Part shown: positions 14,471-36,903 of the stretch, piece by piece
Numbering within the stretch: position 1 is the first letter of the stretch
Layout of the letters: each line of letters opens with the position of its first letter
DNA from: Patescibacteria group bacterium
Lineage (GTDB): Bacteria > Patescibacteriota > JACPGU01
Assembly (NCBI GenBank): GCA_028718745.1
Contig: JAQULF010000008.1
Location: 1 to 38,844 of the forward strand
Direction of reading: 5' to 3'
Length of the DNA stretch: 38,844 bases
The notes under the pieces: model-generated
Databases searched by the model: none
What the model was told of the DNA's origin: nothing
What the model saw: the letters and a program-made list of their open reading frames with translations, nothing else
Position numbers and translations under genes: made by a program

Positions 14471-14920
14471 ATGAAGAATGTATTAGTCGCAGTTATTATC
14501 ACAGTTGTTTTAGTGGGTGGCGGCTCTTTCTTTGGTGGTATCAAATATACTCAAGCTAAAGATTTGGTAGCCAAAAATCAGCAATCATCTGTCAGACAAC
14601 AAGGTGGGGTTGCTGGCGCCGGACGAAGAACAGGGACAAATAGTCAAGGAGGAGGATTTTTGAACGGAAGTATTTTGAGTAAAGACGATAAAAGTATAAC
14701 GGTCAAACTTCAAAATGGCGGTTCAAAAATAGTTTTACTTTCCGGATCAACAACAATCGGAAAAACTACCGATGGTACGGTTACTGACTTGGAAGTTGGT
14801 AAGACAGTGATGGTTAATGGCGCTGCTAATGCCGATGGATCTGTTACGGCTCAATCAATTCAGATTCGACCGGCCGGTTTAGCACCATCGGGAGCAATTG
14901 CGCCAACCGCTACTAAATAA
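14471..14920 (+). CDS. Second membrane-anchored DUF5666-like protein
   Basis: A 149-aa protein with an N-terminal membrane span (about residues 4-24), a Gln/Gly/Arg-rich linker, and a C-terminal beta domain (GSILSKDDKSITVKLQNGGSKIVLLSGSTTIGKTT...LEVGKTVMVNGAANADGSVTAQSIQIRP), the DUF5666 pattern also seen in the first gene of the operon. It follows the permease by 74 nt, has its own strong GGGAGG ribosome binding site, and is ended by a terminator, so it is the last gene of the efflux operon. Function unknown; the paired placement around MacAB suggests a shared role outside the membrane. Confidence 0.8.
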   Translation: MKNVLVAVIITVVLVGGGSFFGGIKYTQAKDLVAKNQQSSVRQQGGVAGAGRRTGTNSQGGGFLNGSILSKDDKSITVKLQNGGSKIVLLSGSTTIGKTTDGTVTDLEVGKTVMVNGAANADGSVTAQSIQIRPAGLAPSGAIAPTATK

Positions 14921-14950
14921 GGAATGATTTTTGTGTTTTGTAAAATATGA

Positions 14951-14984
14951 CAAAAATAGTCCCGTTTTGATGGGACTATTTTTG
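14951..14984 (+). terminator. Terminator of the MacAB/DUF5666 operon
   Basis: A 13-bp perfect stem (14951-14963 with 14972-14984) and an 8-nt loop; the right arm ends in GGGACTATTTTTG. The A-tract on the left makes it usable from either strand. Confidence 0.88.
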
Positions 14985-14999
14985 TGAGGGAAAACATAG

Positions 15000-15027
15000 T
15001 TGCGCGGGAAAATGAATTGAGTATAAT
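15000..15027 (+). promoter_or_regulatory. Promoter of the LysM gene
   Basis: TTGCGC (15000-15005), 16-nt spacer, TATAAT (15022-15027). The start near 15034 puts the period-8 mirrored array in the leader of the LysM gene. Confidence 0.6.
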
Positions 15028-15117
15028 GAATATATGAATCAATGATTAAATGAATAAAGGATTAAATGAATGATCTTTTCTAATCATTTAGTCCTTTAAT
15101 CCTTTATTCATTCTAAT
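15025..15117. repeat. Mirrored iterated array, period 8 (AAKGAWTA)
   Basis: Six 8-nt words in a row on the left (AATGAATA, TATGAATC, AATGATTA and so on). On the right, four words that read the same on the opposite strand. The halves can pair. Relatives at 16554-16585, 28275-28346 and 29871-29936. Confidence 0.85.
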
Positions 15118-15185
15118 TTTCTGCGATAAATATTTAAAGATAATTTAATATATTAATTAAGTAGAATGATTAGGAGGTAACAACA

Positions 15186-15848
15186 ATGAAGCCTAATAAA
15201 AGTGATATTTTTGATTCAATGGATGTGGATCGCGATTGGATTCACACGGAAGTTTTGGGAGATAATAGAAAGCGCGGTGGATTTTTATCAATCCTAACTT
15301 TCATTCTGGTTCTGATTTGCGCTGTAGCGCTGATTTTTATTGCCTTCAAAGATATGTTTGGCAAAGACGATTTGTCCAATCTTGAGAACCTGGACAAAGT
15401 AAAACAAGAGCAGCAAGCGATTGATGACAAAGCAAAACAAGACGCAGCAGCCAAAGCTCTGGCTGACCAGCAGGCTCAACAGCAGGCGGCGCAGGAGATG
15501 ATTTATACAGTTAAGGCAGGAGATACATTAGCTGCTATCGCAGATGAATTTAAAGTGGATATGAATAAAATTGCGGAAGCCAATGGTTTAACGACACCTT
15601 ACGAATTGGATGTTGGACAACAATTAAAAATTCCGGGAGTTGCCAAACCGGCGAATACTGCTCCGGCTGGTGGCTCTGCCGCGCCGGCCGGTTCAGGAAA
15701 TACTTATACTGTAAAATCGGGGGAAACGCTAGCCGGAATAGGAGCTGATCTCGGGATAGATTACAAAACTATCGCTACTCTAAATAATCTTCAATCCCCC
15801 TATAATCTGGAGGTTGGACAAGTTTTGAAGCTTCCTGCAAAACAATAA
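15186..15848 (+). CDS. Membrane-anchored protein with two LysM domains
   Basis: A 220-aa cell-wall-binding protein. One membrane span at about residues 32-55 follows a short cytoplasmic N-terminus. An Ala/Gln-rich coiled linker spans about 70-104. LysM 1 (IYTVKAGDTLAAIADEF...LDVGQQLKIPG) is at about 106-152 and LysM 2 (TYTVKSGETLAGIGADLG...LEVGQVLKLPA) at about 173-218. LysM binds N-acetylglucosamine in peptidoglycan; no enzymatic domain is present, so it probably tethers or organises the wall. AGGAGG is 8 nt before the ATG. No clear terminator follows: a loose AATAAG...CTTATT pairing at 15845-15885 lacks a T-run. Confidence 0.92.
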   Translation: MKPNKSDIFDSMDVDRDWIHTEVLGDNRKRGGFLSILTFILVLICAVALIFIAFKDMFGKDDLSNLENLDKVKQEQQAIDDKAKQDAAAKALADQQAQQQAAQEMIYTVKAGDTLAAIADEFKVDMNKIAEANGLTTPYELDVGQQLKIPGVAKPANTAPAGGSAAPAGSGNTYTVKSGETLAGIGADLGIDYKTIATLNNLQSPYNLEVGQVLKLPAKQ

Positions 15849-16811: not shown

Positions 16812-17006
16812 ATCAAAATGTGCCTTTCGCATCTTAAAAAATTGCTTGTTTAAACAAAGCAAAAAACGAAGAAAAGGTATTTTTTTCGTTTGAAAATAAA
16901 ATAGAACAAAGTCCTTATCTGTCCCAGACGGATAGGGATTGAAGTGAAAGTTTAGACCTCGACTTAAATGTTGAGGGGAAAGAAAACAATCTATGGAGGT
17001 GCGCTC
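16812..17006 (+). promoter_or_regulatory. Structured 5' leader of the lipoprotein gene
   Basis: Two hairpins: 16912-16922 with 16928-16938 (11 pairs including G-U, 5-nt loop) and CCTCGAC with GTTGAGG (16957-16963, 16970-16976). GGAGGTG at 16995-17001 precedes ATG 17007. No known riboswitch motif recognised. Confidence 0.5.
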
Positions 17007-20000
17007 ATGAAGCGCCCAAAAAACAGCATTCAGGTAATGGTTGTACTGATGTTGCTTGTCGTGACCTTTGCGGGTTGCGGAAAAGGCCAGACAGGAGGCA
17101 TTGCTCCCTCGGCGACTCCTGATGCGACGGGAACGATACCGATCGTTCCGCCGGTGGTAATGACATGCAATACTGCTCCCGGAACAGCTTGCATCACGGG
17201 TTTCGCTTTCCTACCGGAAGGCACGGAAGGCGCTGCCCGAGTAGCGGAAAGAAGCTTCTACTTGGGGGAAGTATTCCCTCTGGAAGGCGCGACAATTGAG
17301 TTGCTCACGATGGACGAAACCGGTTTTATATCGGCTTTCGCGACAACAACGAGCGCCCTAGGTGGACAGTTTGCACTGTCTAATATACTCGAGGGTGAAA
17401 ATTACATCCTTCGGGCAACAAAGGCGATCACGGCCACGCAGACAATTGAGATTTTAGCTGTAGTTTCTGTGCAAAGCACAGACATTACGGCGGGTTTCAA
17501 AACGGTCAACATCAACGCAGCCGAAACATTGGTTGCGGAGGGTCTGCGGCAGTTGGCTACTGGCTCGCGCAATGGCGGTCATGCGACAGCTGCAATTCAC
17601 ATTCCGTCGCAAGCTGTCCAGCAACTGCGGGATTCGATTTATCAAGTCCTGCGAAACAATGTTGGACAAATTGCTCCGCGAGAAGAAACGCATTACAATG
17701 CTCCTGCCGGATTCTGTCCGGCTGAAACCGCGCTCAATCAGGTTATCTCAAACATGAGTACGGTGGAGCGTTCGAATGTTTTCAACGGACTGCTGAATGC
17801 TCCCTGCGGTATTGAAATTAATACCGCGATGGGGATGATAGTGACGACCGGAAGCATTCGCGTTCTGGTTCTCTCTCAAGTGGATCCGCTACTTCCCCCA
17901 TGGGAAGCGAATTGGAAGAGAGCGGAAAACGCCAGTGTCTCTGTAGACATTGCGGGAATAACACAAACCCTGCATACCGATACGGATGGTCGGGCATTTT
18001 TCCCAAACCTGCCTCTTGTCGCGACTGCGAGCATTGCAGTTTCATTAGCGGTCGGAGGCGACAACTGGTTTTCGGAAGTTCGCAGTACGACCAGCTGGGG
18101 TGGTCAATTTGTGGAAATCACAGTTACGATCGGGCCCGCTCAGAAAAATCGTTCACCGGTTGCTAAAGCCGGACCAGATCAGACCGTTTTTGCATCAACG
18201 ATTTCAGCACCAACAACAGTAATACTGGACGCATCTGCATCTTATGATCCGGACGGGAACACATTGACATACGAATGGCTCCAAATTTCGGGGCCAGCCG
18301 TAGTGCTTCCAATGTGTCCACCGACCTGCAGTATCCCGCCCAGCATTACCGCAACATTCACACCGACTGTTGCGGGCGCGTATGTTTTTCGCGTCTTGGT
18401 GCAAGATCTGGGTTTTACCGCCACGGATGAAGTCACAATCACAGTTCTTCCGGCTCCGGATATGAGCTGCGCTCATGTAGACGCCGGTCCGCCTCAAACA
18501 GTGCTGGTGGGACAGTCTGTTACCATCAGTAGTGATGGGACCACGGCAACAAGCAGCGCGACATTCAATCATGGATGGGGAACATATGCGGCGCCTACTC
18601 TGGGACCGGTCAGCTTCGCAGATCCCAACGCGACAACCACGACCTTTGTTCCACCGGTCGCGGGGATCTACGCTCTGAAAGCAACATACGAGAATACGAA
18701 TGGCTCATGCATAACTTCGGGCATCGTGTACATCACAGCGACCGTTCCGAATCAGCCGCCGACAGCTTCAATCACGACTTCCGCCACCAGCGGTTTCGCG
18801 CCTCTGATGGTAGATTTTACCGCCAATTGCACGGACCCGGACGGAACTTGCGTATCGTATGCCTGGACCTTCGGCGATGGAAGTTCGTCAAGTTCGGCCA
18901 ATCCCTCTCATTTGTTCACAACAGCCGGAACCTACACAGTTTCGCTGATCGTGACTGATGATGATGGAGCGACGGTGGTCGCAACTACTACTATTACGGT
19001 CAGCGCGCCGATGCCGCCGACTTGCGGAGCGACCAGTAATGTCACGAGCGGATCAACTCCGCTAATCGTGAACTTTACCGGAATCTGCACTCCGGGGTCA
19101 TCATCTTGTATCTCGGGCGGTTGGAGTTATGGGGATGGCATGACGAGCAGCTTAACAGTTGCCAGCCATACCTATATATTCCCCGGCAGTTATGTCGCTA
19201 CTTACACCGGTACAGACGCCAACGGCTTAACCTGCACCGCGACAGTCGCGATCACTGCAAACAACAATCCGCCGACAGCGAGTATTACGAGTTCCGTCAC
19301 CACCGGCACAACTCCGCTCATGGTGAATTTCACCGCCAATTGCACGGATTCGGACGGAACTTGCGCGTCGTATAACTGGAACTTCGGAGACGGATCTCCA
19401 ACTTCCAGCGCGCAAAATCCCAGCCACACTTTCACAGTGGCGGGGACATACATGGTCACATTGACCGTGATGGACAATTTGGGAGCGATCGGAACCGCGA
19501 CTACTACTATTACGGTCAGTGCGCCGATACTGCCCACCGGTCCATTGACATTTGAGAAAAAATGCCCAACCAATCGTCCCGGAGCCCTAGCTGCTACCAG
19601 GGATGGATCAACCGTGTTTGTCATGGACCTTTCAACCCAGACAGTCTATGCCTACGCGTACCCCTCATGTACCTTGATCGGGACATATATCGTTGGTGGA
19701 GGCGGAGCGATCGCTGTGGACGAAGTCCTCGGTCGGCTCTATGCCTATGACGGTATGACTGGCTTCATAAAGATCTTTGACATTATAGGCCAGAATGTCA
19801 TCGGGATATTAGGGCTGGGGCCCGGAACAGGAAATGGTCATTACTCCGCAGTTCCCGGTATGGCGATCGGACAGGGTGGCAAGATCTTCGTTCTGGACAA
19901 TGGGAACAATATCGTCCAAGTATTTTCTCCGGGCGGAGCGTTCCTTTACCAATCTCCAGGGGGCACTGGTTCGGGACCGGATCAGTTAAATAATCCTCAA

Positions 20001-20399
20001 GGGATTGCTCTGGACGGTAATGGCAATGTCTATATTGCAGACAACGGCAATCGGAGAGTCGTAAAAATTTTCGCCACCGATCTCGCCCCTATTACCAGCT
20101 GGGGATTGCCAGCCTGCGGAGCGTATTCTTGCGCCATTGGAACCATCGCGGTTGATCCGAATGCCGGGATCGTCTATACCAATCTGATCCCCACGGGAGG
20201 CACGGGAGCCGGCCGGAAAATTAACATGTTTTCTCTGGACGGAACCGATCTGAATACCCCCTTTGCTTTCTGGGGCACAGCTGACGGACAGATGGCCAAA
20301 CCGGTCGGCGGAGGGATGGCGGTGGATAGTTCCGGTCGACTGTTTGGGGCCAATCAATACCCCGGCAACAGCTTCATAGCATTTATTCCCATTCCCTGA
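17007..20399 (+). CDS. Large lipoprotein with PKD domains and NHL beta-propeller
   Basis: A 1130-aa predicted surface lipoprotein: basic N-terminus, hydrophobic stretch and lipobox FAGC with C24. After a carboxypeptidase-regulatory-like region (about 90-155) come PKD-type Ig modules at about 382-485, 486-580, 582-668, 669-753 and 754-842; the third and fifth contain NCTDPDGTCVSYAWTFGDGSS-like cores in which two cysteines may form a disulfide. The C-terminal 280 residues contain NHL repeats (GKIFVLDNGNNIVQVFSPGG, GNVYIADNGNRRVVKIF), a beta-propeller likely to bind protein or sugar. ATG 17007 has GGAGGTG. High GC, own promoter and terminator. Probably an adhesion or recognition protein; the ligand is unknown. 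Confidence 0.88.
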   Translation: MKRPKNSIQVMVVLMLLVVTFAGCGKGQTGGIAPSATPDATGTIPIVPPVVMTCNTAPGTACITGFAFLPEGTEGAARVAERSFYLGEVFPLEGATIELLTMDETGFISAFATTTSALGGQFALSNILEGENYILRATKAITATQTIEILAVVSVQSTDITAGFKTVNINAAETLVAEGLRQLATGSRNGGHATAAIHIPSQAVQQLRDSIYQVLRNNVGQIAPREETHYNAPAGFCPAETALNQVISNMSTVERSNVFNGLLNAPCGIEINTAMGMIVTTGSIRVLVLSQVDPLLPPWEANWKRAENASVSVDIAGITQTLHTDTDGRAFFPNLPLVATASIAVSLAVGGDNWFSEVRSTTSWGGQFVEITVTIGPAQKNRSPVAKAGPDQTVFASTISAPTTVILDASASYDPDGNTLTYEWLQISGPAVVLPMCPPTCSIPPSITATFTPTVAGAYVFRVLVQDLGFTATDEVTITVLPAPDMSCAHVDAGPPQTVLVGQSVTISSDGTTATSSATFNHGWGTYAAPTLGPVSFADPNATTTTFVPPVAGIYALKATYENTNGSCITSGIVYITATVPNQPPTASITTSATSGFAPLMVDFTANCTDPDGTCVSYAWTFGDGSSSSSANPSHLFTTAGTYTVSLIVTDDDGATVVATTTITVSAPMPPTCGATSNVTSGSTPLIVNFTGICTPGSSSCISGGWSYGDGMTSSLTVASHTYIFPGSYVATYTGTDANGLTCTATVAITANNNPPTASITSSVTTGTTPLMVNFTANCTDSDGTCASYNWNFGDGSPTSSAQNPSHTFTVAGTYMVTLTVMDNLGAIGTATTTITVSAPILPTGPLTFEKKCPTNRPGALAATRDGSTVFVMDLSTQTVYAYAYPSCTLIGTYIVGGGGAIAVDEVLGRLYAYDGMTGFIKIFDIIGQNVIGILGLGPGTGNGHYSAVPGMAIGQGGKIFVLDNGNNIVQVFSPGGAFLYQSPGGTGSGPDQLNNPQGIALDGNGNVYIADNGNRRVVKIFATDLAPITSWGLPACGAYSCAIGTIAVDPNAGIVYTNLIPTGGTGAGRKINMFSLDGTDLNTPFAFWGTADGQMAKPVGGGMAVDSSGRLFGANQYPGNSFIAFIPIP

Positions 20400-21274: not shown

Positions 21275-24200
21275 ATGCGAAAAAAAATTGATTCATTGTT
21301 TTCGGGGATTTCTTCCAAAACACGACTCGCTGTGATTCTATTATTAGTTGTCGTGATAGTGGCGGTAGGTATTTGGGGATCTCTAAGAAGTAGGGCTCTT
21401 CATGTATTGGAAGTTCCGGGAGTATTTAATCTTTCCGATGACGCCGCGAAAAGTAACAATAAATTGGCAGATGATAATATGGTTGATGTTTTTGCGTATA
21501 ATTCAGCCGGTGAAACATGGAGGACCAATCCAAATGCTGTTTCCGGGTTTCCTGAAAAAGCTGAACTGGTCGCGACTTATGGGGGATTGAGCATTATTGA
21601 TGCCACTACCAATGCTCCATGGAAAATAATTAAATCAACCTCCGCAAATAGCGCGATTCCCGCTACTATAACATCTTCCGGTTTGGCTGTGGGATCTTTT
21701 GGAGGAGTTACAGCTGTGAACGGCAAAATTTATGTCGGAACTTTTTATAATGGTTTGGTAATAATTGATTTGGCAAATGGCAAAATATATAAGGCATCTC
21801 CCGATGGGGGCAATGCCAATGCCAGCACGACAATGGAATATAATGGAACAGTTTCTCAATGGGGAAATGATTTAGGTTGGAAAGCGCCATCAATAGATCC
21901 TGCGACATATGCTATACCGGGCACATCCACCGGTATTATCCGAGATATTACCAGCGTAGTAAAGAATGGTAAAGCTTATATCGCTTTCTCCACTTCAGAA
22001 GGAAAAATCTCAATTATTGAAGATGGTGTAAAAACTTTCCGTAGAACTATTAGCTATACAGGTAGTTTGTGCGCCGATGGAGGCCAACCGGTTCAATATC
22101 TTTTAGGTAAGGTTGCTTTTGGGCTAAATGGTACTCTATATATAGGAAACCTTTATAATAGCGGCGTTTCCATGGTTTGTACTTCCGGCAGCAGTACGCG
22201 CGGCAAACCTTTTGTCATCGCTTATTATGATGCTTTTAATAATATCCCATCTTTTGATCTTAGAAACATTACGGCTGCTAATGGTACAAAATATGCAAAT
22301 CCGATTTTAAACACGGATCCTTTTGAGGATAACACCGGCACAATGGCGGGAGTACTGATACATCCCAATACCGATATGTTGAATGATATCTCGCTTAGTG
22401 GAGGCGAAAATAATGGGAATAATACGGTATTTGTAGCAACTACTTCCGGTGTGGATATATTTCTTGATAGCAATGGACTTGATGTACCTGCTGGACTTTA
22501 TCCAACGGCTGATACACCAGCACATCTAACATCTAATAAACACTGGGGAGCAACGGGAGCCATTGAAGAAAGACTAGCTGAAAATAACGCTCTTTCCGTG
22601 GCAAATAATGACGCTGATAAAATTTGGGTCGGGCAGGCAACCAAGGGTCTTCTAGAAGTTTCTGCGCCGGGAGTACCCACATCCAGAGCAGATTATCTAA
22701 CAACTACCGATATTGGTATCGCAGGGAATGCGGTTAGCTCATTAGCTTTTGGAGCTCATTTGGAATCTTCTGCTATTCCAAATGATGACTACTTGGTGGT
22801 TGGTTCAGCAACCGGTGCCACTCGTTTGGCGCATTATGTTTTAACTCCGGATTCAGAATTAACCTCTTCCATACAATTATCCGATAGCGGTAAATTAGTT
22901 TCCAATAATGTCCGCGATGTATTCTATTATGACACGACTAAAGATAGTAATTCCGGCTGGACGACAGGAAGCGGAAAAAGTTGGTCAACCGCTACTCCGG
23001 TGCGACAATTATCCGCTCCGGATTCATTCAACGAAGGCGGACAATTGAGCACTCCTTGCGGAGGAAGCGTTACAAATCCTTCCGTAATAAAAGTAAATAA
23101 TGACCCGGAAGGTTATGCTTACAGAATGTTTTATGTCCGTCCTTTCTGCGGCCCTTGGTATGGAAAACCAACTATCAATCAAGCTAAAAGTAGAGATGGA
23201 GAAAGCTGGGTTGACCTACCGATTGTACCGACTGGCGGATCATACCAGTATATCAGCATTGATCCGACTATCCCCGCGAACTCCGCCATCAACAATAGTT
23301 ATGTTGACGCGCCGGTAGTAATTCAAGATCCTGAAGGAAGCGGAAAGTTTATGATGTGGTTTAGAGGTGATATTGATAAAATCTATTATTCTGAAACCAC
23401 GGATATCGTAAATAATTCTTGGTCCGCTCCAATTGAGGTGTTAAATGCAGGCAATTTAGCTGCTTTGGGTACCGTAACACAAATAAACGACCCATGGGTT
23501 GAGTTTGATGATATCAACAATCCAAGCAATCCCTACAGAATGTATTTCTCTTATTATAATGGCGTGAATTGGCAGATCGGTAAGATTGACGGGTTTGACC
23601 CAACTTCTATCGGAGGCTGGACTAATTCTTTGGCTGCGCCTTTCCTTTCACCGGGATCATCTTGGGATACAGGTAATGTTATGTCTCCAACTATCGGAAC
23701 TTTGGGAACTCAAAAATATCTATTCTACGCCGGGATAAAAGCGGGCGAAACCGTTTCTCACATCGGTTCTGTTGAAATCTGTAATTTAGATTCCGGTTGT
23801 GGCGGAGTTACCAAAGGACAGATAATCCCGGGTCCAAATAACGCGGCCATTATCAGTCTGCTTACCTCTTCTACTCCGGCCGGTATGACAGGTCCTGCCG
23901 CTTTGGTGGATGCCACCGGATCATCAATGGCGAATTTGAAACTTTGGTATCAAGGAAACACCGGGAAGATCTATGCCGGGGGATCTGATTATGCTAATTT
24001 GATTGGATCAGCTACGGCTTACAATATTAGCAGTGTCGGAGGAACTTTCCCTCAACAGGCTAATTTAGTTTTAACCCCGATGTCTCTGGAAATCATTGAT
24101 GCTAAAACCAATAATCTGTATATGCGTTTCGCTTCCGGTTTGAAAAACGCCTTTCATTTGGATGCGTATGTTAGACCGACATCCGTCTACGCGTTAAATG

Positions 24201-27200
24201 GAGTAATCTATATTGGTCTATCCAGCAGTAATGGCAATATGAATAACAGCGGCTTGATTGCCCTAGATCTTATTAACGACAATGCGACATTCTACCAAGC
24301 ATGGCAAAAAGGAGTATTCCAGAAGAATGGAACGGCTAAAACGATAATGCAAATAATGGCAGACAACCCAAGCGATCTTGATGGTTACGCATTCTCCGGT
24401 TATTTATTGGCAAACGCAGCTGATTCTCTGCTTTTCCATAGAGAAACACCAGCGGCTGCTTACCTAACACGCGATAATACCAATAATGTTCTGGATATTA
24501 ATGGAGCAATTGTTAATGGCGCGCCCTATGTGGCCATCTCTTCATCCAGCTGGATTAGCAACCCCGATGGTTCAGGTACAACCGGCTTCGCGGGAGTATC
24601 AATGATTAAATATGGAAGTAACGGATTGCAGGGTTATGATGCTCGTTATTTACAGGAATCAAATTTAACATGTAATACGGCATTCGGCAGCTGTTGGAGA
24701 AATGCTAAAAAAGTGGCTTTGGATGACGCGGGCAATTTGGTTTTAGGAGAACAAGGTTTGATGTCAACCGATAATACTGTTTATGAAGATTTCCCATTTT
24801 ACATCAATTATGGTCAAGATCCAGCTTGGATTAAAGTAATCAATAACGCGGCTAATGCCGGCGCCGGGTCATGGACTGATATTACTAACGCGCCAAGCTT
24901 GGCAATAGGTAAAGATGATCCAAGCAACCAATCACTTTGGGCAAAACTGAAAGATATGGCGGTTGTGAAGACCGGTTCAGGGCATAGTATTTATGCTGCT
25001 ACTGACAGAGGTGTCTTTGAAGTTAAGGAAGCAAGTAATGCCTTAAGCCAGACTAATCGCTGGTCGCAAAGCAGTTATTCTAACGCAAAACAGATTTTAC
25101 CAACTGATAGTTTTAATGCGGTAGCTTTTGACGGATCAAGAGTTTTTGCCGGATCAGCTACCACCGGTATCGCTGCTTTTGCTCCATCAGCCGCTACGGC
25201 GGGAGATGTTCATAGCTTTAATACGATGAGTATGCCAACGCCATTGCTTTCAAATAATGTTAGGGCGCTTGGATTCGGAACTGCCGGTAATGATAAATTC
25301 GTAGCAGTTGGCACTGACGCGGGAGAAACGATTCTGTCAACCAGAGTCATAGAGGGTGATTCTGACGGTGATGGTATCGCGGATAAATATGATTATTGTC
25401 CATTGGATGCGACAAATTCATGTTCTACAACTCGCAAACAGGCGATAATTTGTAACCCTAATTCTCCTAGTCAGTTAGAAATTCCGGGCAGAACAAAATT
25501 ATCTTACGATTGCGGCAATTCAGCGCTTTCCGGCGCTGCGGTAGAAGCGGTAGTCGGTAATTCAAATTATTATTTGCAAGGTGATATCTATGTGGTTTCT
25601 TCCTACACATTTAGTTCCAGCTCGACACCGATTGGCAATGTTTCAGTAACGATGCATTGGAATGATGTGAATAATGACAATGTTGTTGATGGAACAGGTG
25701 TGGCTGAAAGCAGTTTGAAGATCTATCATAAAGATAATTCCGGAAGCGTTTCCGAAGTTACCCCTGTCAATCTGGATCTTTCAGCAAATACGGCTACCTT
25801 TACCGCAACCAGCTTCTCTGAATTTATTCTAGCGGGTAACACTAACGGATTTATCACGGGAGTAGATGGTTCTGCGGTACAGCCAGACGGCACAGTTATT
25901 CCTAGTCCGATTTCAGCCGTTCCTACCGTTACCGGTGTCGCAGTCGCAAATTCCAATGTTGATTTGTATCTAAAAGCAACCGGAGGACAAGCGGATCAGA
26001 TAGATAAAGTTGCCGGGGAGTCCAATCTATCGTTAACCATTGATTTTAATAGCAACCCACCGGTATTGCCATTTGCCAGAACCGGAATGCAGCTGGGAGG
26101 AATCAACTATATGGATGCAGCCCCAATGTTTGGACCGGATGCAATCGGAGTTATGTGGTGGCTGCCAAGCGCTCAAAACCCAATCCTGTTGCCTAGTACT
26201 ATTGGCATAGAGGATCAAGAGATATTAAATGGTGTTTATGTCTATCTAACAACTATGGATATTCCTGCCGGCGCCATTGGAAACCCTGATCCGATTGTTC
26301 TACATTGGACTATCTATTCATTGCGACCGGAACTATTCAGCCAGATCATCACGATGATGAATCAGCAAGGAATACCAACCAAGGTTGACGCTTTTGCTCT
26401 AGCCTTTACAGCCGATCAGTCTATTCCGGCCTTTGTTCCGGCAACTTTGCCAATAGATAATATGGGAACTCTTCAATACAATAGTGGCAATGGCCAAGTT
26501 GAGTTTAATCCGGCTGGCGCAGCTCCAATCTTGATTGGCTCTACTGCTTCCAATAGCGCTAGTAGCTTTACAGCAAGATTTGGTTTTGACGCCAATAATA
26601 ATCCAATCTCGGACTTGGAAGGCAAGACATTATTTGACCTAGCTCCCGGACCAGACTTCCAGATATTTGTACAAGTTAATGGCCAAAAATCTCCGGAAGT
26701 TAATATTGCGGCAGAAAAACCATCTGCTCCAACAGACAATACTGCACCGATTACGACCTCTTCTATCGCTGGTACCCAGGAAGCAGCTCCATATAATACA
26801 TATTATCAAAATCAAGCAACCGTAACTCTTACCGCTAATGACCCAATCGGCGAAGGCGCAGCTCCTTCCGGAGTCGCAAAAATTGAGTACTCTCTATCCG
26901 GCGCTATGACTTTGGGCTGGACCACCTATACGGCTCCTATCGTGATCAATGCGGCGGGAGAGACGATTGTATCTTACAAAGCGACTGATAATGCCGGAAA
27001 TGTAGAAAATGTGAATACATTAGCAATCAAGATTGATAAAGATTCCGATAATGATGGCGTCTACGATAACTTTGATCTGTGCGCTTTGGTTGCCGGCAAA
27101 GCGGAATTTGACGGATGTCCTGCGGCGATCTCTATCAAAGGCACATTGCATGTACTTTATGTCGGCAATAGTGTCGGATATGCCGGAATTGACGATAAAG

Positions 27201-28165
27201 GCAGACAGAAGAACTCATCTAAGATTGCGATGATTCCGGGACCGGTTGGAGATAGCAGAGGCGAAGTTATAAATTCTGTTACAGCCAGAGTATTCACTTA
27301 CGAAAAGGTTAAAGCCCAATTTGGCAATCCGGAGAATGACTTCGATAAGAATTACGACAAGCATTATAAGACATCTTGCGCGGATATATACAACACTGTT
27401 GTTCCAACAGTAGAAAGAAAAATAAAAACCACTCCGGTAACGCAAGTTCAATTGGATTCTTCTCCGGACTTGATCGGAGTTTCCGCAAAGGGACAATATA
27501 TAATCGCTGAACGAGTGATAATTACCGATCCGATTGACAGCACTTCCAGAACAGCTACGGTCTGCCGCAAGATTAGCAATGCTGATAAATTCAATTTTGA
27601 CTATGATGGCAATAGAACACCTGATCCAGTAGCTCAAGTCAAAACAACCATAATTAAGACTGTCAAAGACAAATGTGTTAAGAATAACCCAAGCAAGATC
27701 TGCGTTCAAACCGATCCGGCCGATGAAGATAATTTTACCGGTTCATTCCTAGCCGTATCTTACCCGCAGAATTCACTCTGGGAAGATGATTTAAATACCT
27801 ATATCTATCCATATGTATTTGAATCCGATGCTGACTGGACGCTGGATGTTTGCGCGCAAGCTCCGACCGGATACCAGATCGTTGGCGTCTATGATGAAAA
27901 TGGAGTCTTGATCACCAGCAACAATTGTGTTCAAACCATAGTTGCCGGCGGAACAAAGATTGCGGCTTTTGAAGCGATGGATGTGGGAAGCCCAAGCGTA
28001 TTTAATATGGGCACTACTCTTAGCTTAAAGCACGCTGGTAAGACGCAAAAGGTTACCAACCAGATTGCCACCAAGAAGAAAGCCAGATCTGAAATGGTTA
28101 AAGACTTGCCAAAGCCTGATAAGGCGGTAACGAATTTCTTAACCAAGAAATCAGCCAAGAAATAG
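21275..28165 (+). CDS. Giant membrane-anchored surface protein (2296 aa)
   Basis: One N-terminal membrane span (about residues 15-36) after a short basic stretch, the rest extracytoplasmic. Residues about 40-520 and 950-1350 hold WD/NHL-like propeller blades (repeated YVGTFYNGLVIIDL, IYIGLSSSNGN types). About 540-880 resembles a five-bladed propeller of GH43/GH32-like proteins (YRMFYVRP, KFMMWFRGDIDKIYYSETTD, YRMYFSYYNG), but catalytic residues were not verified. Two thrombospondin type-3 calcium motifs: DSDGDGIADKYDYCP near 1362 and DSDNDGVYDNFDLC near 1923. An OmpL47-like module (IEYSLSG...YKATDNAGNVE) lies around 1830-1915. The end is basic (KKARSEMVKDLPKPDK). Strong ribosome binding site AAAAAGGAG. 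Probably a stalk or adhesin; exact role unknown. Confidence 0.85.
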   Translation: MRKKIDSLFSGISSKTRLAVILLLVVVIVAVGIWGSLRSRALHVLEVPGVFNLSDDAAKSNNKLADDNMVDVFAYNSAGETWRTNPNAVSGFPEKAELVATYGGLSIIDATTNAPWKIIKSTSANSAIPATITSSGLAVGSFGGVTAVNGKIYVGTFYNGLVIIDLANGKIYKASPDGGNANASTTMEYNGTVSQWGNDLGWKAPSIDPATYAIPGTSTGIIRDITSVVKNGKAYIAFSTSEGKISIIEDGVKTFRRTISYTGSLCADGGQPVQYLLGKVAFGLNGTLYIGNLYNSGVSMVCTSGSSTRGKPFVIAYYDAFNNIPSFDLRNITAANGTKYANPILNTDPFEDNTGTMAGVLIHPNTDMLNDISLSGGENNGNNTVFVATTSGVDIFLDSNGLDVPAGLYPTADTPAHLTSNKHWGATGAIEERLAENNALSVANNDADKIWVGQATKGLLEVSAPGVPTSRADYLTTTDIGIAGNAVSSLAFGAHLESSAIPNDDYLVVGSATGATRLAHYVLTPDSELTSSIQLSDSGKLVSNNVRDVFYYDTTKDSNSGWTTGSGKSWSTATPVRQLSAPDSFNEGGQLSTPCGGSVTNPSVIKVNNDPEGYAYRMFYVRPFCGPWYGKPTINQAKSRDGESWVDLPIVPTGGSYQYISIDPTIPANSAINNSYVDAPVVIQDPEGSGKFMMWFRGDIDKIYYSETTDIVNNSWSAPIEVLNAGNLAALGTVTQINDPWVEFDDINNPSNPYRMYFSYYNGVNWQIGKIDGFDPTSIGGWTNSLAAPFLSPGSSWDTGNVMSPTIGTLGTQKYLFYAGIKAGETVSHIGSVEICNLDSGCGGVTKGQIIPGPNNAAIISLLTSSTPAGMTGPAALVDATGSSMANLKLWYQGNTGKIYAGGSDYANLIGSATAYNISSVGGTFPQQANLVLTPMSLEIIDAKTNNLYMRFASGLKNAFHLDAYVRPTSVYALNGVIYIGLSSSNGNMNNSGLIALDLINDNATFYQAWQKGVFQKNGTAKTIMQIMADNPSDLDGYAFSGYLLANAADSLLFHRETPAAAYLTRDNTNNVLDINGAIVNGAPYVAISSSSWISNPDGSGTTGFAGVSMIKYGSNGLQGYDARYLQESNLTCNTAFGSCWRNAKKVALDDAGNLVLGEQGLMSTDNTVYEDFPFYINYGQDPAWIKVINNAANAGAGSWTDITNAPSLAIGKDDPSNQSLWAKLKDMAVVKTGSGHSIYAATDRGVFEVKEASNALSQTNRWSQSSYSNAKQILPTDSFNAVAFDGSRVFAGSATTGIAAFAPSAATAGDVHSFNTMSMPTPLLSNNVRALGFGTAGNDKFVAVGTDAGETILSTRVIEGDSDGDGIADKYDYCPLDATNSCSTTRKQAIICNPNSPSQLEIPGRTKLSYDCGNSALSGAAVEAVVGNSNYYLQGDIYVVSSYTFSSSSTPIGNVSVTMHWNDVNNDNVVDGTGVAESSLKIYHKDNSGSVSEVTPVNLDLSANTATFTATSFSEFILAGNTNGFITGVDGSAVQPDGTVIPSPISAVPTVTGVAVANSNVDLYLKATGGQADQIDKVAGESNLSLTIDFNSNPPVLPFARTGMQLGGINYMDAAPMFGPDAIGVMWWLPSAQNPILLPSTIGIEDQEILNGVYVYLTTMDIPAGAIGNPDPIVLHWTIYSLRPELFSQIITMMNQQGIPTKVDAFALAFTADQSIPAFVPATLPIDNMGTLQYNSGNGQVEFNPAGAAPILIGSTASNSASSFTARFGFDANNNPISDLEGKTLFDLAPGPDFQIFVQVNGQKSPEVNIAAEKPSAPTDNTAPITTSSIAGTQEAAPYNTYYQNQATVTLTANDPIGEGAAPSGVAKIEYSLSGAMTLGWTTYTAPIVINAAGETIVSYKATDNAGNVENVNTLAIKIDKDSDNDGVYDNFDLCALVAGKAEFDGCPAAISIKGTLHVLYVGNSVGYAGIDDKGRQKNSSKIAMIPGPVGDSRGEVINSVTARVFTYEKVKAQFGNPENDFDKNYDKHYKTSCADIYNTVVPTVERKIKTTPVTQVQLDSSPDLIGVSAKGQYIIAERVIITDPIDSTSRTATVCRKISNADKFNFDYDGNRTPDPVAQVKTTIIKTVKDKCVKNNPSKICVQTDPADEDNFTGSFLAVSYPQNSLWEDDLNTYIYPYVFESDADWTLDVCAQAPTGYQIVGVYDENGVLITSNNCVQTIVAGGTKIAAFEAMDVGSPSVFNMGTTLSLKHAGKTQKVTNQIATKKKARSEMVKDLPKPDKAVTNFLTKKSAKK

Positions 28166-28222: not shown

Positions 28223-28274
28223 ATTGCTTAAATTTTCTTCTTTACTAATGTTATATTAGATGTTATATTAGATA

Positions 28275-28346
28275 AATGAATATATGAATAAAGGATTAAA
28301 TGATTAGAAAATACAGTCCTTTAATCTTTTATTCATTTAATCATTC
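28275..28346. repeat. Mirrored iterated array, period 8
   Basis: AATGAATA, TATGAATA, AAGGATTA, AATGATTA on the left, and the complementary series on the right. It ends 4 nt before the antitoxin ATG and produces a false N-terminal extension (MIRKYSPLIFYSFNHS) in the open frame. Compare 29871-29936, which gives MIRRNNPLIIYSFNHY. Confidence 0.85.
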
Positions 28347-28350
28347 AATT

Positions 28351-28611
28351 ATGAAATCAATAAACATCAATGAACTTCAGTCACAGATTTCTAAAATTAT
28401 AAAATCCGTGGAAAAGGGCGAAGATTTTGAAGTTATCCGCTATTCCAAACCGGTAGCGGTGGTTATCGGTAGTAAAAAATGGGAAAAATTGCAGGTTGAA
28501 CTTAATGAACTAAAAGGCTCATGCAGGAAATGCGTGGATGAGTTTAAAAAAACAAAATCACGAATGATCCCGAATGTTACCCGAATATCCCGAATATCAA
28601 AAAAATATTAG
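28351..28611 (+). CDS. Phd/YefM-type antitoxin, orphan, with repeat-encoded C-terminus
   Basis: An 86-aa protein. Residues 1-50 match the Phd/YefM fold (INELQSQISKIIKSVEKGEDFEVIRYSKPVAVVIGSKKWEKL), the DNA-binding dimer domain of type II antitoxins. The last 15 residues (from about IPNVTRISRIS) are encoded by the left arm of a period-10 array, so the toxin-binding tail has been replaced or extended. No toxin frame (RelE, Doc or PIN) lies on either side; cysteine desulfurase follows 53 nt later. ATG 28351 is chosen because the upstream codons are another array. It may now act only as a repressor, or be a remnant. Confidence 0.8.
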   Translation: MKSININELQSQISKIIKSVEKGEDFEVIRYSKPVAVVIGSKKWEKLQVELNELKGSCRKCVDEFKKTKSRMIPNVTRISRISKKY

Positions 28612-28636
28612 ACCAGCAATTCGGGACATTAGGGAA
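28568..28636. repeat. Mirrored iterated array, period 10, across the antitoxin stop codon
   Basis: TCCCGAATGT, TACCCGAATA, TCCCGAATAT on the left (in the antitoxin frame). After a 20-nt centre, AATTCGGGAC and ATTAGGGA on the right (beyond the stop). Confidence 0.88.
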
Positions 28637-28664
28637 AAAAATTTAGAAATAATTAAATAATAAT

Positions 28665-29873
28665 ATGAATAAAAAGATAGTTAAAAATGAAAGAATATAT
28701 TTCGATAACTCCGCCACCACCCCTATGGATTCTCGCGTTATCTCCGAAATGAAGAATGTAATGGAGAGTGATTTTGGTAATCCATCCTCAATTCATTCCT
28801 ATGGGCGAGAGGCTCGGGGGTTGCTGGACAAATATAGAGAAGTTTGCCGAGATTTTATTGGCGCGGATGAAGTTAATGAAATTATTTTTACCTCCGGAGG
28901 ATCGGAAGCGGATAATCTGGCAATTTTGGGATTGGTTAAAAAAAGTAAAGTTAAAAAACCGCACATCATTACTTCGCTCATAGAACACAAGGCGGTTTTG
29001 GAAACGATTCAAGAATTGGAAAAAAAGGAATTAATCGAAGCCACCTATTTAAAGGTGGACAAATATGGACAAATTGATTTGGAAAATGTTAAAAGGGAAA
29101 TAAGACACAACACTATTTTAATCTCCGTAATGTATGTGAATAACGAAGTCGGGACAATTCAGCCGGTTCGTGAAATTGGAAAATATCTGGAAAAAATAAA
29201 TGAAGGAAGGGTTGGCGGAGGGTTTCCGCGCATTTATCTTCATACCGATGCGGTGCAAGCTTTTCCTTATCTGAAGTGTAATGTGAAACATTTACATATA
29301 GATATGATGTCGGTTTCAGCGCATAAATTTAACGGACCAAAAGGAACCGGTTTTTTATATGTTAAAGAAGGAACTCCTGTTGAAAAAATAATTTATGGCG
29401 GCGCGCAAGAATTTAATTTTCGGGCCGGCACCGAGAATATGTCCGGAATTGCCGGATTAGCCAAGGCCGTTGGAATTTTGGCTAAAGAACAAGATAAAGA
29501 GGTTAAAAAAATAACCGAGTTAAGGGACAAATTGATCAAAGGAGTTTTAAAGATCAAAGGAGCTGATCTAACTGGACATAAAACGGAAAGATCACCGGCT
29601 ATTGCCAGTTTTGTTTTTTCCGGTATAGAAGGCGAGTCTATTCTAATAAATCTGGATTTGGAAGGAATCGCGGTTTCCACCGGCAGCGCTTGTTCGTCAG
29701 GAACACTTTCCCCCAGCCATGTTTTAATGGCGATGGGCTATTCACATGTTGAAGCTCAAGGAAATATTCGGGTTTCTTTGGGGAGATTTAATACGGAGGC
29801 CGAGGTCAAAAGATTTTTAGATGTTTTGCCAGGAATTGTGGAAAGATTGAGAGATTTAAGTCCACTAAGCTAA
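28665..29873 (+). CDS. iscS: Cysteine desulfurase (NifS/IscS family)
   Basis: A 402-aa PLP enzyme that takes sulfur from cysteine and hands it as persulfide to IscU and MnmA, both encoded next. Seen: YFDNSATTPMD near the N-terminus, the TSGGSEADN cofactor region, HTDAVQ, SAHKFNGPKG with PLP lysine K221, RAGTEN, and the sulfur-carrying loop STGSACSSG with C343. Length and motif order are normal for group I desulfurases. No ribosome binding site. Whether NifS or IscS is the better name cannot be settled; the gene order with iscU and mnmA supports a housekeeping role. Its stop codon is the first TAA of a period-8 array. Confidence 0.95.
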   Translation: MNKKIVKNERIYFDNSATTPMDSRVISEMKNVMESDFGNPSSIHSYGREARGLLDKYREVCRDFIGADEVNEIIFTSGGSEADNLAILGLVKKSKVKKPHIITSLIEHKAVLETIQELEKKELIEATYLKVDKYGQIDLENVKREIRHNTILISVMYVNNEVGTIQPVREIGKYLEKINEGRVGGGFPRIYLHTDAVQAFPYLKCNVKHLHIDMMSVSAHKFNGPKGTGFLYVKEGTPVEKIIYGGAQEFNFRAGTENMSGIAGLAKAVGILAKEQDKEVKKITELRDKLIKGVLKIKGADLTGHKTERSPAIASFVFSGIEGESILINLDLEGIAVSTGSACSSGTLSPSHVLMAMGYSHVEAQGNIRVSLGRFNTEAEVKRFLDVLPGIVERLRDLSPLS

Positions 29874-29936
29874 ATGAATAAAGGACTAAATGATTAGAAG
29901 AAATAATCCTTTAATCATATATTCATTTAATCATTA
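29871..29936. repeat. Mirrored iterated array, period 8, starting at a stop codon
   Basis: TAAATGAA, TAAAGGAC, TAAATGAT, TAGAAGAA, then the complementary series ending in TTCATTTAATCATTA. The first TAA terminates the desulfurase. Confidence 0.85.
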
Positions 29937-29967
29937 CAAAACTATTATAAAACTAAAAAAATATTTT

Positions 29968-30360
29968 ATGACTACATCACAATACAATCCCAAGATAATT
30001 GCTCATTTTACCTCTCCTCACAATGTCGGCGAGATTAAAGATGCTGATGGGGTAGGCGAAGTTGGCAATCCGATGTGCGGAGATATGATGAAGCTAACGA
30101 TTAAAGTTGGCCGAAATAAGAAAGACGAAGAGATTATAGAAGATGTTAAATTTAAAACTTATGGCTGCGCGGCGGCTATCGCCACTTCTTCAATGGTTAC
30201 GGATATGGCTATGGGGAAAACTTTAGACGAAGCTCTCAAAATAACTCGTCAAGATGTGGCCGAGGAACTCGGGGGTTTGCCGGAGATAAAGATGCATTGC
30301 AGTAATTTAGCGGCAGATGCATTACGAAAGGCCATTGAGAATTATAGAAGCAAGGGATAA
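29968..30360 (+). CDS. iscU: Iron-sulfur cluster scaffold protein (IscU/NifU N-terminal)
   Basis: A 130-aa scaffold on which Fe-S clusters are assembled with sulfur from the adjacent desulfurase. The three ligand cysteines are present: C37 in GNPMCGD with D39, C67 in YGCAAAIATSS, and C111 in KMHCSNLA. The length equals typical IscU. It lacks the LPPVK chaperone-recognition motif in its usual form: LPEIKMHC is seen instead. ATG 29968 is chosen because the open frame upstream (from 29890) is a period-8 array and an AT-rich spacer. A mirrored array separates it from mnmA. Confidence 0.93.
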   Translation: MTTSQYNPKIIAHFTSPHNVGEIKDADGVGEVGNPMCGDMMKLTIKVGRNKKDEEIIEDVKFKTYGCAAAIATSSMVTDMAMGKTLDEALKITRQDVAEELGGLPEIKMHCSNLAADALRKAIENYRSKG

Positions 30361-30481: not shown

Positions 30482-31942
30482 ATGAAAAATGAAAATATTA
30501 AAAGTAAAATTCGTGTAGTAGTCGCTATGTCCGGTGGCGTGGACAGTTCCGTCGCCGCGTATCTTTTGAAAAAACAGGGATATGATGTTATTGGAATTTT
30601 TTTGAAATTATGGACTCCGCCAGATTATAAAGATTGTTGCAATATCGTAGGGGAGGCCCTATGTGGCCTCCCAAATTCGGGCGACCACGCAGGGTCGCCC
30701 CTACGGACCCACAAACAGAATTTGTGCTGCGATGACAAGGCCATGGCGGTGGCTAGACAAATAGCGGACAAATTGAAAATTCCTTTTTATGTTCTCAAGG
30801 TGGACAAATTGTTTAAGGAAGAGATAGTGGACAATTTCATTTCGGAATATGAGCAAGGAAGAACCCCCAACCCTTGTGTTAGGTGTAATAAGTATATTAA
30901 GTTTGGATATCTGTGGGAGAAGGCGAAGGAACTGGGTGCTGATTATTTGTCCACTGGACATTATGTGAGTGCAAAAAAGGTAAAAGATATTAGATATTCG
31001 ATATTAGATATTAAAAACCAAAAAGCAAAAAATATCCAATATCCATTATCCAATATCTCAATTTGTCGCTCTAAAGATACTATCAAAGATCAAACATATT
31101 TTCTCTCCAGTATTGATCCAAAAATCATTCCCCATCTTCTCTTCCCCCTAGGCAATATGACCAAAAAAGAGGTTCGCTCGATTGCGAAAAAGGCTAAAAT
31201 AACCGTTTATAATAAAAAAGACAGTATGGGAGTCTGTTTTATTCCGGATGGAGATATGGATGCTTTTCTTAAACATTTTTCTAAATCAGGCGAACCCGGT
31301 TCACCCCGCCAAAGGCGGGGAGATATTGTGGATAAACAGGGGAATGTTTTGGGCGCGCACAAGGGGTTGCTTGGCTATACGGTGGGGCAAAAAATAGGGG
31401 ATGATCAGGTAGCGGCAAAATACCATAAATTCCCGAATTATCCCGAATGTAATCCGAATATCCCGAATGGTAAATCCCAAACATTTAGAAAAGAATTCGG
31501 AATATTAGGGAATGATTTGGGACAATTAGGGAAAAAAAATTTTGATATCCCAAGGCTGTATGTTCTCGCCATTGACCACAAAAGAAATCGCTTAGTTGTG
31601 GGAGAAAATGAGGATTGTTTTAGTAAAGAAATGATTGTTGAGAACCTAAATGTTGTAAATGGTCGGTTCTGGGAAATGGTTAAAAAGAAAAAAATATTTT
31701 ATGCGCAGATAAGAGGAGGGCATAGAGCCGAAAAATGCCATGTCACGAATTATCCCGAATGTTACCCAAATAACCCAAATAATAAACTCCAAACACTTAG
31801 AAAAGAATTCGGGACATTAGGGATTAATTCGGGACAATTAGGGATAGAATTTTTGAAACCTGTTCGCGCTATAACTCCCGGTCAGACCGTGGCTTTATAT
31901 GATAAAAAGATTCTAATCGGCGGAGGGGTGATAAAAAAATAG
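30482..31942 (+). CDS. mnmA: tRNA 2-thiouridylase MnmA with five in-frame palindromic insertions
   Basis: Makes 2-thiouridine at the wobble base of Lys, Glu and Gln tRNAs using sulfur passed from the desulfurase. ATP PP-loop VVVAMSGGVDSSVAAYLL at residues 12-29; TPNPCVRCNKYIKFG with the catalytic cysteine; STGHYV; KDQTYFLSSI; SMGVCFIPDGD with the second cysteine; GAHKGLLGYTVGQKIG. At 486 aa it is more than 100 residues longer than the usual 360. The excess is located: residues about 56-75 (paired REPs), 168-193 (period-7 array), 275-280 (short palindrome), 317-351 and 421-455 (two period-10 arrays with YPECNPNIPN / LRKEFGTLG-like peptides). Catalytic motifs lie outside all five. No frameshift is seen. 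It is probably still active, but this is untested. Confidence 0.9.
   Translation: MKNENIKSKIRVVVAMSGGVDSSVAAYLLKKQGYDVIGIFLKLWTPPDYKDCCNIVGEALCGLPNSGDHAGSPLRTHKQNLCCDDKAMAVARQIADKLKIPFYVLKVDKLFKEEIVDNFISEYEQGRTPNPCVRCNKYIKFGYLWEKAKELGADYLSTGHYVSAKKVKDIRYSILDIKNQKAKNIQYPLSNISICRSKDTIKDQTYFLSSIDPKIIPHLLFPLGNMTKKEVRSIAKKAKITVYNKKDSMGVCFIPDGDMDAFLKHFSKSGEPGSPRQRRGDIVDKQGNVLGAHKGLLGYTVGQKIGDDQVAAKYHKFPNYPECNPNIPNGKSQTFRKEFGILGNDLGQLGKKNFDIPRLYVLAIDHKRNRLVVGENEDCFSKEMIVENLNVVNGRFWEMVKKKKIFYAQIRGGHRAEKCHVTNYPECYPNNPNNKLQTLRKEFGTLGINSGQLGIEFLKPVRAITPGQTVALYDKKILIGGGVIKK
30647..30704. repeat. Inverted pair of GTAG REPs inside mnmA
   Basis: Plus-strand REP: GTAG 30647-30650, arms GGGAGGCC (30651-30658) and GGCCTCCC (30665-30672), 6-nt loop, then AA. 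Minus-strand REP: GTAG at 30704-30701, arms GGGCGACC and GGTCGCCC (30679-30686, 30693-30700), 6-nt loop. The six bases AAATTC lie between. The head-to-head layout equals a BIME of Escherichia coli. Confidence 0.9.
30984..31058. repeat. Mirrored iterated array, period 7, inside mnmA
   Basis: Four 7-nt words of the GATATTA type on each side of an 18-nt A-rich centre; 24 of 28 arm positions are complementary. Read in frame as residues 168-193 (DIRYSILDIKNQ...NIQYPLSNIS). Confidence 0.85.
31304..31320. repeat. Short perfect palindrome inside mnmA
   Basis: CCCCGCC-AAA-GGCGGGG. It adds SPRQRR between EPG and GDIVD, where the family normally reads PGDIVD without interruption. Confidence 0.8.
31431..31532. 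repeat. Mirrored iterated array, period 10, inside mnmA (first copy)
   Basis: Ten-nt words TCCCGAATTA, TCCCGAATGT, AATCCGAATA, TCCCGAATGG, a short centre, then AATTCGG, ATTAGGG and AATTAGG words in the same register. Encodes residues 317-351. Confidence 0.9.
31744..31844. repeat. Mirrored iterated array, period 10, inside mnmA (second copy)
   Basis: Closely similar to the copy at 31431-31532, including the centre CCAAACA-TTAGAAAAGAATTC. The right arm is four exact 10-nt words ending CAATTAGGGA. Encodes residues 421-455. Confidence 0.9.
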
Positions 31943-36197: not shown

Positions 36198-36211
36198 GTC
36201 GGATTGATTTC

Positions 36212-36239
36212 TTGACATCGGACATCAAGAATGTATAAT
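36212..36239 (+). promoter_or_regulatory. Consensus promoter embedded in the flanking palindrome, leaderless
   Basis: TTGACA (36212-36217), 16-nt spacer, TATAAT (36234-36239), both hexamers perfect. The -35 and most of the spacer are the palindrome itself. The start falls at 36246-36247, on the A of the RAYT ATG. The base changes from the perfect palindrome are those that create TTGACA. Confidence 0.85.
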
Positions 36240-36246
36240 TTAGACT

Positions 36247-36873
36247 ATGGAAGGAGAGGTTTATCACATATATAACAGAGGAGTGGAAAAAAGAGATATT
36301 TTTCTAGATGAAAGAGATTATCAGAGATTTTTAGATTCTTTAAAGGAATTTAATTGTTCTCGGTCTGTAAATATGCAGGATATTAATCGATGTCGGACAT
36401 CAAGAAAATTTCTTGATGTCCGACATCGAGAGGATCGTCTTGTAGATGTTTTATGTTATACTCTGATGCCAAACCACTATCATCTTTCTCTTAAGTCGCT
36501 GAAAGAAAATGGAATAACAGATTTTATGAGAAAATTAAGCACGGGATATACAAAATATTTTAATATAAAATATCAAAGAAGTGGGCATTTATTTCAAAGT
36601 AAATTTCAAAGAAAAGAAGTTGGTGATCCGGAAAACTTTGCTTATCTAACTGCATATATACATCTGAATCCTGTTACAGCTGGTTTAGTGAGCCAGCCTG
36701 AATATTATAAGTTTTCCAGTTACAAAAATTATATTAATTCCGGAGAAAGTGAGATATTGATTTTAGATAAAGACTGGTTTAATATAGATAATATCTCTTA
36801 TAAAAAGTTTATTGAGGAAATAAGAGAAGAAAAAGAATGGCAGAAAAAAATTGAAAGAATAATTATAGACTAA
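36247..36873 (+). CDS. REP-associated tyrosine transposase (RAYT), second gene
   Basis: A 208-aa HUH-family transposase-like protein, related to the product of 1649-2311: EGEVYHIYNRGVEKRDIF at the N-terminus, CYTLMPNHYHL with the HUH histidines, candidate catalytic tyrosine in STGYTKYFNIKYQRSGHLFQSKFQRKEV, and AYIHLNPVTAGL. Residues 48-61 are encoded by a 41-nt palindrome placed 38 nt before the ATG codon of MPNH, the same place as in the other RAYT. It has its own consensus promoter and apparently leaderless mRNA. Flanking 23-nt palindromes suggest it moves with, or acts on, its own repeat. The frame is intact. Confidence 0.93.
   Translation: MEGEVYHIYNRGVEKRDIFLDERDYQRFLDSLKEFNCSRSVNMQDINRCRTSRKFLDVRHREDRLVDVLCYTLMPNHYHLSLKSLKENGITDFMRKLSTGYTKYFNIKYQRSGHLFQSKFQRKEVGDPENFAYLTAYIHLNPVTAGLVSQPEYYKFSSYKNYINSGESEILILDKDWFNIDNISYKKFIEEIREEKEWQKKIERIIID
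36388..36428. repeat. 41-nt perfect palindrome inside the second RAYT gene
   Basis: Left arm 36388-36407 and right arm 36409-36428 are exact reverse complements (20 bp) around one A. The core TGTCGGACATCAAGAA is shared with the palindromes on both sides of the gene. Confidence 0.95.
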
Positions 36874-36903
36874 ATTCTTGATGTCCGACATCAAGAAATC
36901 GCT

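Follow-up and report, generated by a model that had tools for sequence, protein, structure and literature searches.

Palindromic repeats inserted in frame into mnmA of a Patescibacteria bacterium and their probable persistence as disordered linkers

The DNA analysed here (the window, 38,844 nucleotides) is contig C8 of a Patescibacteria genome (G000) of 887,656 bases in 28 contigs that is 97% complete. It carries mnmA, which follows genes for a cysteine desulfurase and an IscU/NifU-type scaffold protein and hosts five palindromic inserts, A to E (residue ranges of inserts are approximate).

28665-29873, plus strand: cysteine desulfurase of the IscS/NifS type (NCBIfam), syntenic with the related genome G002
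29890-30360, plus strand: IscU/NifU-type scaffold protein (NCBIfam), syntenic with G002
30482-31942, plus strand: mnmA, tRNA-2-thiouridine(34) synthase, 486 aa, host of the five inserts (NCBIfam PRK00143/TrmU, above cut-off)
30647-30704, no strand: insert A, an inverted pair of GTAG-tagged REPs (GTAGGGG...CCCCTAC) of 58 nt, residues 56-75
30985-31058, no strand: insert B, a period-7 hairpin array (AGATATT x4 / AATATCC x4; TRF period 7), residues 167-193
31300-31320, no strand: insert C, a short hairpin TTCACCCCGCC-AAA-GGCGGGG (TTCACCCCGCCAAAGGCGGGG), residues 273-280
31430-31533, no strand: insert D, a hairpin with a period of ~10 nt (TCCCGAATTA.../...AATTAGGGAA) from a dispersed family, residues 317-351
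31743-31856, no strand: insert E, a second copy of the D-type ~10-nt-period hairpin, residues 421-459

The host gene is well identified. Its product scores 333.9 bits against the NCBIfam cut-off of 284 for MnmA, a PDB sequence match also backs this identity, and the best Foldseek structures are the MnmA entries 2hma, 2det and 2deu (TM-score 0.86-0.87 by target length). A genome-wide search found a single full MnmA match in G000. The initial annotation had described an mnmA with five in-frame palindromic insertions, no stop and no frameshift, and the open reading frame indeed runs for 486 codons without a stop. It had put the inserts at about 120 codons together, close to the 128 residues counted here; MnmA without its inserts is thus 358 aa long, a normal size given the 347-377 aa of most relatives. 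The PP-loop SGGVDS, both catalytic cysteines and the C-terminal GQ are all present and intact, as had been claimed, and S17, G18, G19, D21, S22, C135, C252, G467 and Q468 are invariant across 30 MnmA sequences, this one included. The gene order iscS-iscU-mnmA is conserved in G002, and the cysteine desulfurase is the likely sulfur donor for MnmA. A periodic hairpin (29912-29935) overlaps the start of the IscU-type reading frame, whose true start may lie downstream of it.

A structure predicted by AlphaFold from the 30-sequence alignment is a confident MnmA fold, with 251 residues at pLDDT >= 90. Values below 50 occur at residues 1-3, 51-79, 172-188 (one residue excepted), 308-354 and 427-450, and apart from residues 1-3 these segments are inserts A, B, D and E, in agreement with the earlier statement that the insertions lie in loops. 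Insert C alters protein length only slightly. The MnmA core is 64% identical to that of G002, whereas the inserts give poor alignments or none, and the loop at site A has ~11 aa in both G002 and G001 against 34 aa here. The relatives do not carry old, conserved stretches of protein at these sites, which would have spoken for ancient domains; their loops are short there or filled by unrelated elements. No nucleotide-level empty site was found for the mnmA inserts because the nearest relative is only ~60% identical in protein, and a search of genome contigs found no close relatives of this MnmA. Loop position in the model, together with the invariant residues, supports the suggestion that a still functional-looking gene tolerates the elements as protein linkers, and MnmA with its inserts would be expected to retain activity.

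The five inserts belong to different types. Insert A has the GTAG tetranucleotide that marks the foot of GTAG REP hairpins (20-40 nt) and consists of two hairpin units, its arms are 77% complementary, and it has no match among plasmids. The arms of insert B, one of 61 periodic hairpin elements in G000, are 86% complementary. Relative to dinucleotide shuffles, the RNA folding z-scores are -5.3 for A, -6.9 for B, -2.8 for C, -2.8 for D and -2.2 for E. Inserts D and E are 82-83% identical over 112 nt; their description as two "period-10" arrays holds as regards two inserts, which belong to a dispersed family, but they are only loosely periodic and fail the 80% periodicity threshold, so their status rests firmly on family membership. 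The inserts encode ~7-39 aa each, and tryptic peptides from within them would include NIQYPLSNISICR (B) and EFGILGNDLGQLGK (D).

Beyond what the initial annotation had described, such insertions occur genome-wide and have named precedents. At the chosen threshold, G000 contains 235 palindromes, compared with 5 in a block-shuffled genome. The GTAG...CTAC elements of G000 number about 45, 33 of them within reading frames and 12 elsewhere; they occur as 28-nt monomers and 52-74-nt dimers, the dispersed copies and inverted dimers that characterise GTAG REPs. A 28-nt GTAG subfamily is found in 9/96 genomes of the phylum, and G000 holds most copies. The TTCAC-CCGCC hairpins, to which insert C belongs, number six, all in reading frames (6/6). 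The D/E family has ~9 copies at distant loci that agree in sequence, length and arm order; two lie in mnmA, one ends an antitoxin gene and the others are intergenic or at gene edges.

28540-28645, no strand: third D/E family copy, supplying the 3' end of a Phd/YefM antitoxin gene at 28300-28611 (Pfam PhdYeFM_antitox)

Both ends of this antitoxin reading frame are overlapped by periodic hairpins (28272-28352 and 28540-28645). The 61 periodic hairpins of G000 have 7-, 8- or 9-nt units and comprise 35 intergenic, 22 ORF-edge and four intragenic elements, and the period-8 family also recurs at many loci. Period-7 segments are strongly over-represented, as in known heptameric simple repeats: 145 in G000 against 8 after shuffling, and 193 in G002 against 10, with 47 and 56 of them, respectively, lying within hairpins. 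Overall, elements in G000 range from 28 nt to ~115 nt. Of the 58 periodic hairpins of G000 that have flanking genes, 0/58 lie between convergent genes, compared with 53/428 background gaps, and 52/58 lie between genes of the same direction, an orientation pattern that does not look like that of terminators. Two contigs of the assembly, C22 and C26, have a G+C content of 60-63% against 39% elsewhere and are possible contaminants of the bin. The window also contains two very long reading frames, 21275-28165 (2296 aa) and 16968-20399 (1143 aa, with PKD and NHL repeats), which probably encode surface proteins.

The relationship of these elements to protein coding was assessed with a flank test, in which every palindrome of G000, in a called reading frame or not, qualified if both 240-nt flanks matched the same G002 protein in order. 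Breaks in tblastn alignments yielded too small a sample for a frame test, since the alignments run through the inserts. In the flank test 46 palindromes qualified, and 45/46 were in frame and free of stops (binomial p ~1e-20 against one third); the exception, at C7:19479, shifts the frame and lies in a 95-aa reading frame. The same test in G002 gave 18/18 palindromes in frame and open. The 33 GTAG elements within reading frames, one of which (51 nt) probably fits the pattern by chance, are distributed over the three phases as 22/11/0, and the empty phase is the one that reads TAG. Moreover, 30/33 of them have a length of 1 mod 3, compared with 6/12 outside reading frames (Fisher p 0.006), and for dimers alone the figures are 12/15 and 3/9 (p 0.04). 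Such a length preserves the frame if each GTAG element brings two further bases; the bases adjoining GTAG/CTAC are biased, with pyrimidines before and purines after. In an insertion census by pairwise alignment, 9/46 protein insertions relative to the G002 ortholog lie in palindromic DNA, against 0.3% of control segments; mnmA is absent from this census because G002 MnmA has inserts at the same sites. Palindromes are thus a measurable source of protein insertions in G000. Among 20 insert-bearing genes scanned, the identified hosts include LepA, RlmN, PolA, TsaD, TrhP, Elp3 and MiaA, as well as PriA, UvrB, RecG, a PcrA-like helicase, an Mfd-like protein, LigA and PheT, which gives the impression of a skew towards DNA repair and the modification of tRNA or rRNA.

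A plausible means of spread is also encoded in the genome, which has eight Y1 (IS200-like) transposase genes, two of them in the window.

36247-36873, plus strand: Y1 (IS200-like, RAYT-type) transposase with flanking TCTTGATGTC-type hairpins (Pfam Y1_Tnp, 28.6 bits)
36210-36230, no strand: flanking hairpin TCTTGACATCGGACATCAAGA upstream of this transposase
36387-36429, no strand: in-frame hairpin within this transposase gene, from the family that flanks it
36876-36896, no strand: flanking hairpin TCTTGATGTCCGACATCAAGA downstream of this transposase
1649-2311, plus strand: the window's other Y1 transposase, whose reading frame contains a 47-nt palindrome (1820-1866) (Pfam Y1_Tnp, 30.9 bits)

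Most Y1 genes have a hairpin family of their own, inverted copies of which lie on either side of the gene; this REPtron layout is seen at 36247-36873 in the window and on contigs C9, C18, C4, C6, C3 and C1. Apart from the TCTTGATGTC type, the flanks consist of GTTGGTTC-type hairpins at four loci, TGACA/TTCC hairpins on C3 and CGACTAAAGTCGGG hairpins on C1, and the TCTTGATGTC, GTTGGTTC-type and TGACA/TTCC families also have members inside genes. The transposase at 36247-36873, which has no ortholog in the syntenic G002 interval, is a candidate for mobilising the TCTTGATGTC insert family. The C6 transposase gene likewise contains hairpins of its own family in frame (C6:14973 and 15013); this gene (14581-15282) has a paralog, C9:33008-33592, which lacks the C6 insert. 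Neither transposase of the window matched a PDB sequence. This arrangement suggests that Y1/RAYT transposases flanked by their own hairpins are a route by which REP-type inserts spread. GTAG hairpins were found in the flanks of 0/8 Y1 genes, a flanking RAYT being often, not always, present with GTAG REPs, and none of the eight is clearly linked to the periodic arrays.

The MnmA loops of other genera are filled as well, with other elements. In G002 MnmA, site B is occupied by a period-7 hairpin, site D by a heptamer array with a single arm and site E by a GTAG REP pair. Heptamer hairpins fill B, E and an additional loop in G025; in G052, GC hairpins occupy A and heptamer arrays occupy B; and G001 carries a heptamer-repeat segment at E. 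At site E of G025 mnmA (L015), the loop of a heptamer hairpin array contains a REP-like hairpin (CATTCCGGCCTCCGAGCCGGGATCC), so that one insertion is nested in another. The periodic units differ by lineage as well, being AAATGATT and AAAAAAT in G000 and AAAATTG in G002. Since different elements occupy the same loops, sequence comparison indicates that these sites are tolerant and that the inserts were gained independently in each genus.

We consider it highly probable that non-autonomous palindromic repeats spread through this genome and that those keeping the frame and landing in loops persist as translated, disordered linkers. According to this explanation, small repeats of this kind would disperse through the genome and their presence in mnmA would be incidental. 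The REP-type inserts (A, probably also C) would most likely have moved via Y1/RAYT-type transposases acting on single-stranded-DNA hairpins, and the periodic-arm hairpins (B, D and E) would be separate dispersed families. Purging would remove insertions that disrupt the reading frame or an essential fold, leaving those that lie in surface loops, have a length divisible by three and are free of stops, to be translated as disordered linkers. The alternative raised in the initial annotation, removal at the RNA or protein level, fares poorly. Inserts could be processed out of the RNA before translation or bypassed by ribosomes during it, as with the byp elements of Magnusiomyces mitochondria; they do form stable RNA hairpins, and hairpin bypassing exists in yeast mitochondria (mentioned in PMC6649704). 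However, removal from RNA would free both frame and stops, yet both are kept in 45/46 palindromes of G000 and 18/18 of G002, which argues for translation, and the stop-giving phase of the GTAG elements is empty and their lengths are skewed within genes. We therefore regard removal as highly improbable, and byps were rejected as a class on the same frame and openness counts. Inteins and RNA introns were also rejected: the window contains 0 Rfam introns, and the inserts are, to our knowledge, smaller than any known intein. Excision from the protein is likewise unsupported, the inserted sequences being this short and differing from gene to gene. Thus, the preserved frames indicate that the inserts are almost certainly translated, as floppy loops.

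Dispersal and tolerance must also be weighed against three other readings. The periodic arrays B, D and E may have grown in place from a short seed by replication slippage and fold-back copying in loops of free length, which would suit the different units of G000 and G002, the single-arm heptamer array without a partner arm at G002 site D and the over-representation of heptameric repeats in many bacteria (PMC4692102). Growth in place does not account for D and E agreeing with distant loci in sequence, length and arm order, nor for the recurrence of the period-8 family, and we regard it as possible but doubtful. That the inserts are selected additions, such as translation-tuning hairpins or loops adding a binding surface, would accord with the repeated filling of the same loops in several genera and with the bias of the hosts; but the added peptides show no relationship from one relative to the next, are predicted to be disordered and are encoded by whichever repeat family is active in each genome, a pattern that tolerance explains equally, so that selection appears improbable. 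Five inserts in one gene are extreme enough to raise the idea of a decaying pseudogene or an assembly artefact. This is barely credible for an unbroken, single-copy gene with every invariant residue in a nearly complete genome and a conserved iscS-iscU-mnmA order, particularly as many contigs carry in-frame members of these element families and similar inserts occur in an independent genome.

The principle of dispersal and tolerance has clear precedents in intragenic REPs (PMC3733652) and in the Rickettsia palindromic elements, or RPEs (Ogata 2000, 2002, via PMC10969869 and PMC6649704). By those accounts, RPEs form several dispersed palindromic families in a small genome, many in frame in unrelated metabolic or housekeeping genes and apparently tolerated, and palindromic repeats likewise lie in frame within unrelated genes in G000 (45/46 in the flank test). 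In contrast to RPEs, which belong to another lineage and are compared here by description only, the elements of G000 include several with Y1 partners and several whose arms repeat every 7 to 10 nt, and as many as five elements from four families are stacked in its mnmA alone. REP-decorated proteins of Rickettsia conorii are reported to be expressed (PMC3733652). Insert A resembles the intragenic GTAG-/CGTC-tagged REPs of the same study in its GTAG foot, hairpin unit and inverted-dimer layout, and those REPs also form in-frame inserts of ~20-30 aa, with hosts of the classes seen in G000, such as UvrB, DNA polymerase I, UvrD/Rep helicase, DNA ligase and tRNA modification and synthetase genes. 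However, GTAG REPs are known mainly as intergenic elements, whereas 33/45 lie in reading frames in G000, where no GTAG-flanked RAYT was found. The Y1 loci resemble REPtrons (PMC3733652, PMC2817692) in being flanked by inverted copies of one dispersed hairpin family, but differ in that some of the transposase genes themselves contain in-frame hairpins of the same family. Similarly, the heptameric repeats of Xanthomonas and Nostoc (PMC4692102) consist of many degenerate 7-nt tandem units, sometimes in convergent inverted pairs capable of forming stem-loops; theirs are G-rich and intergenic, whereas those of G000 are AT-rich, mainly two-armed hairpins, occur also with 8-nt and ~10-nt units and sometimes lie within coding genes. 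A partial literature search turned up no description of palindromes within genes of CPR bacteria, nor of coding inserts formed by periodic-arm hairpins. What is new here is the lineage, the stacking of several families in one gene, the periodic-arm hairpins as coding inserts and the repeated hits on the same loops. We suggest, tentatively, that hairpins with arms of 7-, 8- and ~10-nt units may form an undescribed class of dispersed palindromes that, with REPs, continually feeds disordered loops into DNA-repair and RNA-modification enzymes, at the same loops in each lineage.

In summary, mnmA is one case of a genome-wide lengthening of housekeeping proteins by spreading repeats without breakage; in this streamlined genome, they make a single-copy enzyme of tRNA modification longer by about one third. 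The refilling of MnmA loops by different elements in each genus amounts to a natural experiment in insertion tolerance, and the periodic-arm hairpins raise the concrete question of what copies them. In addition, odd long loops in proteins of such genomes call for caution, as they may be repeat-derived.
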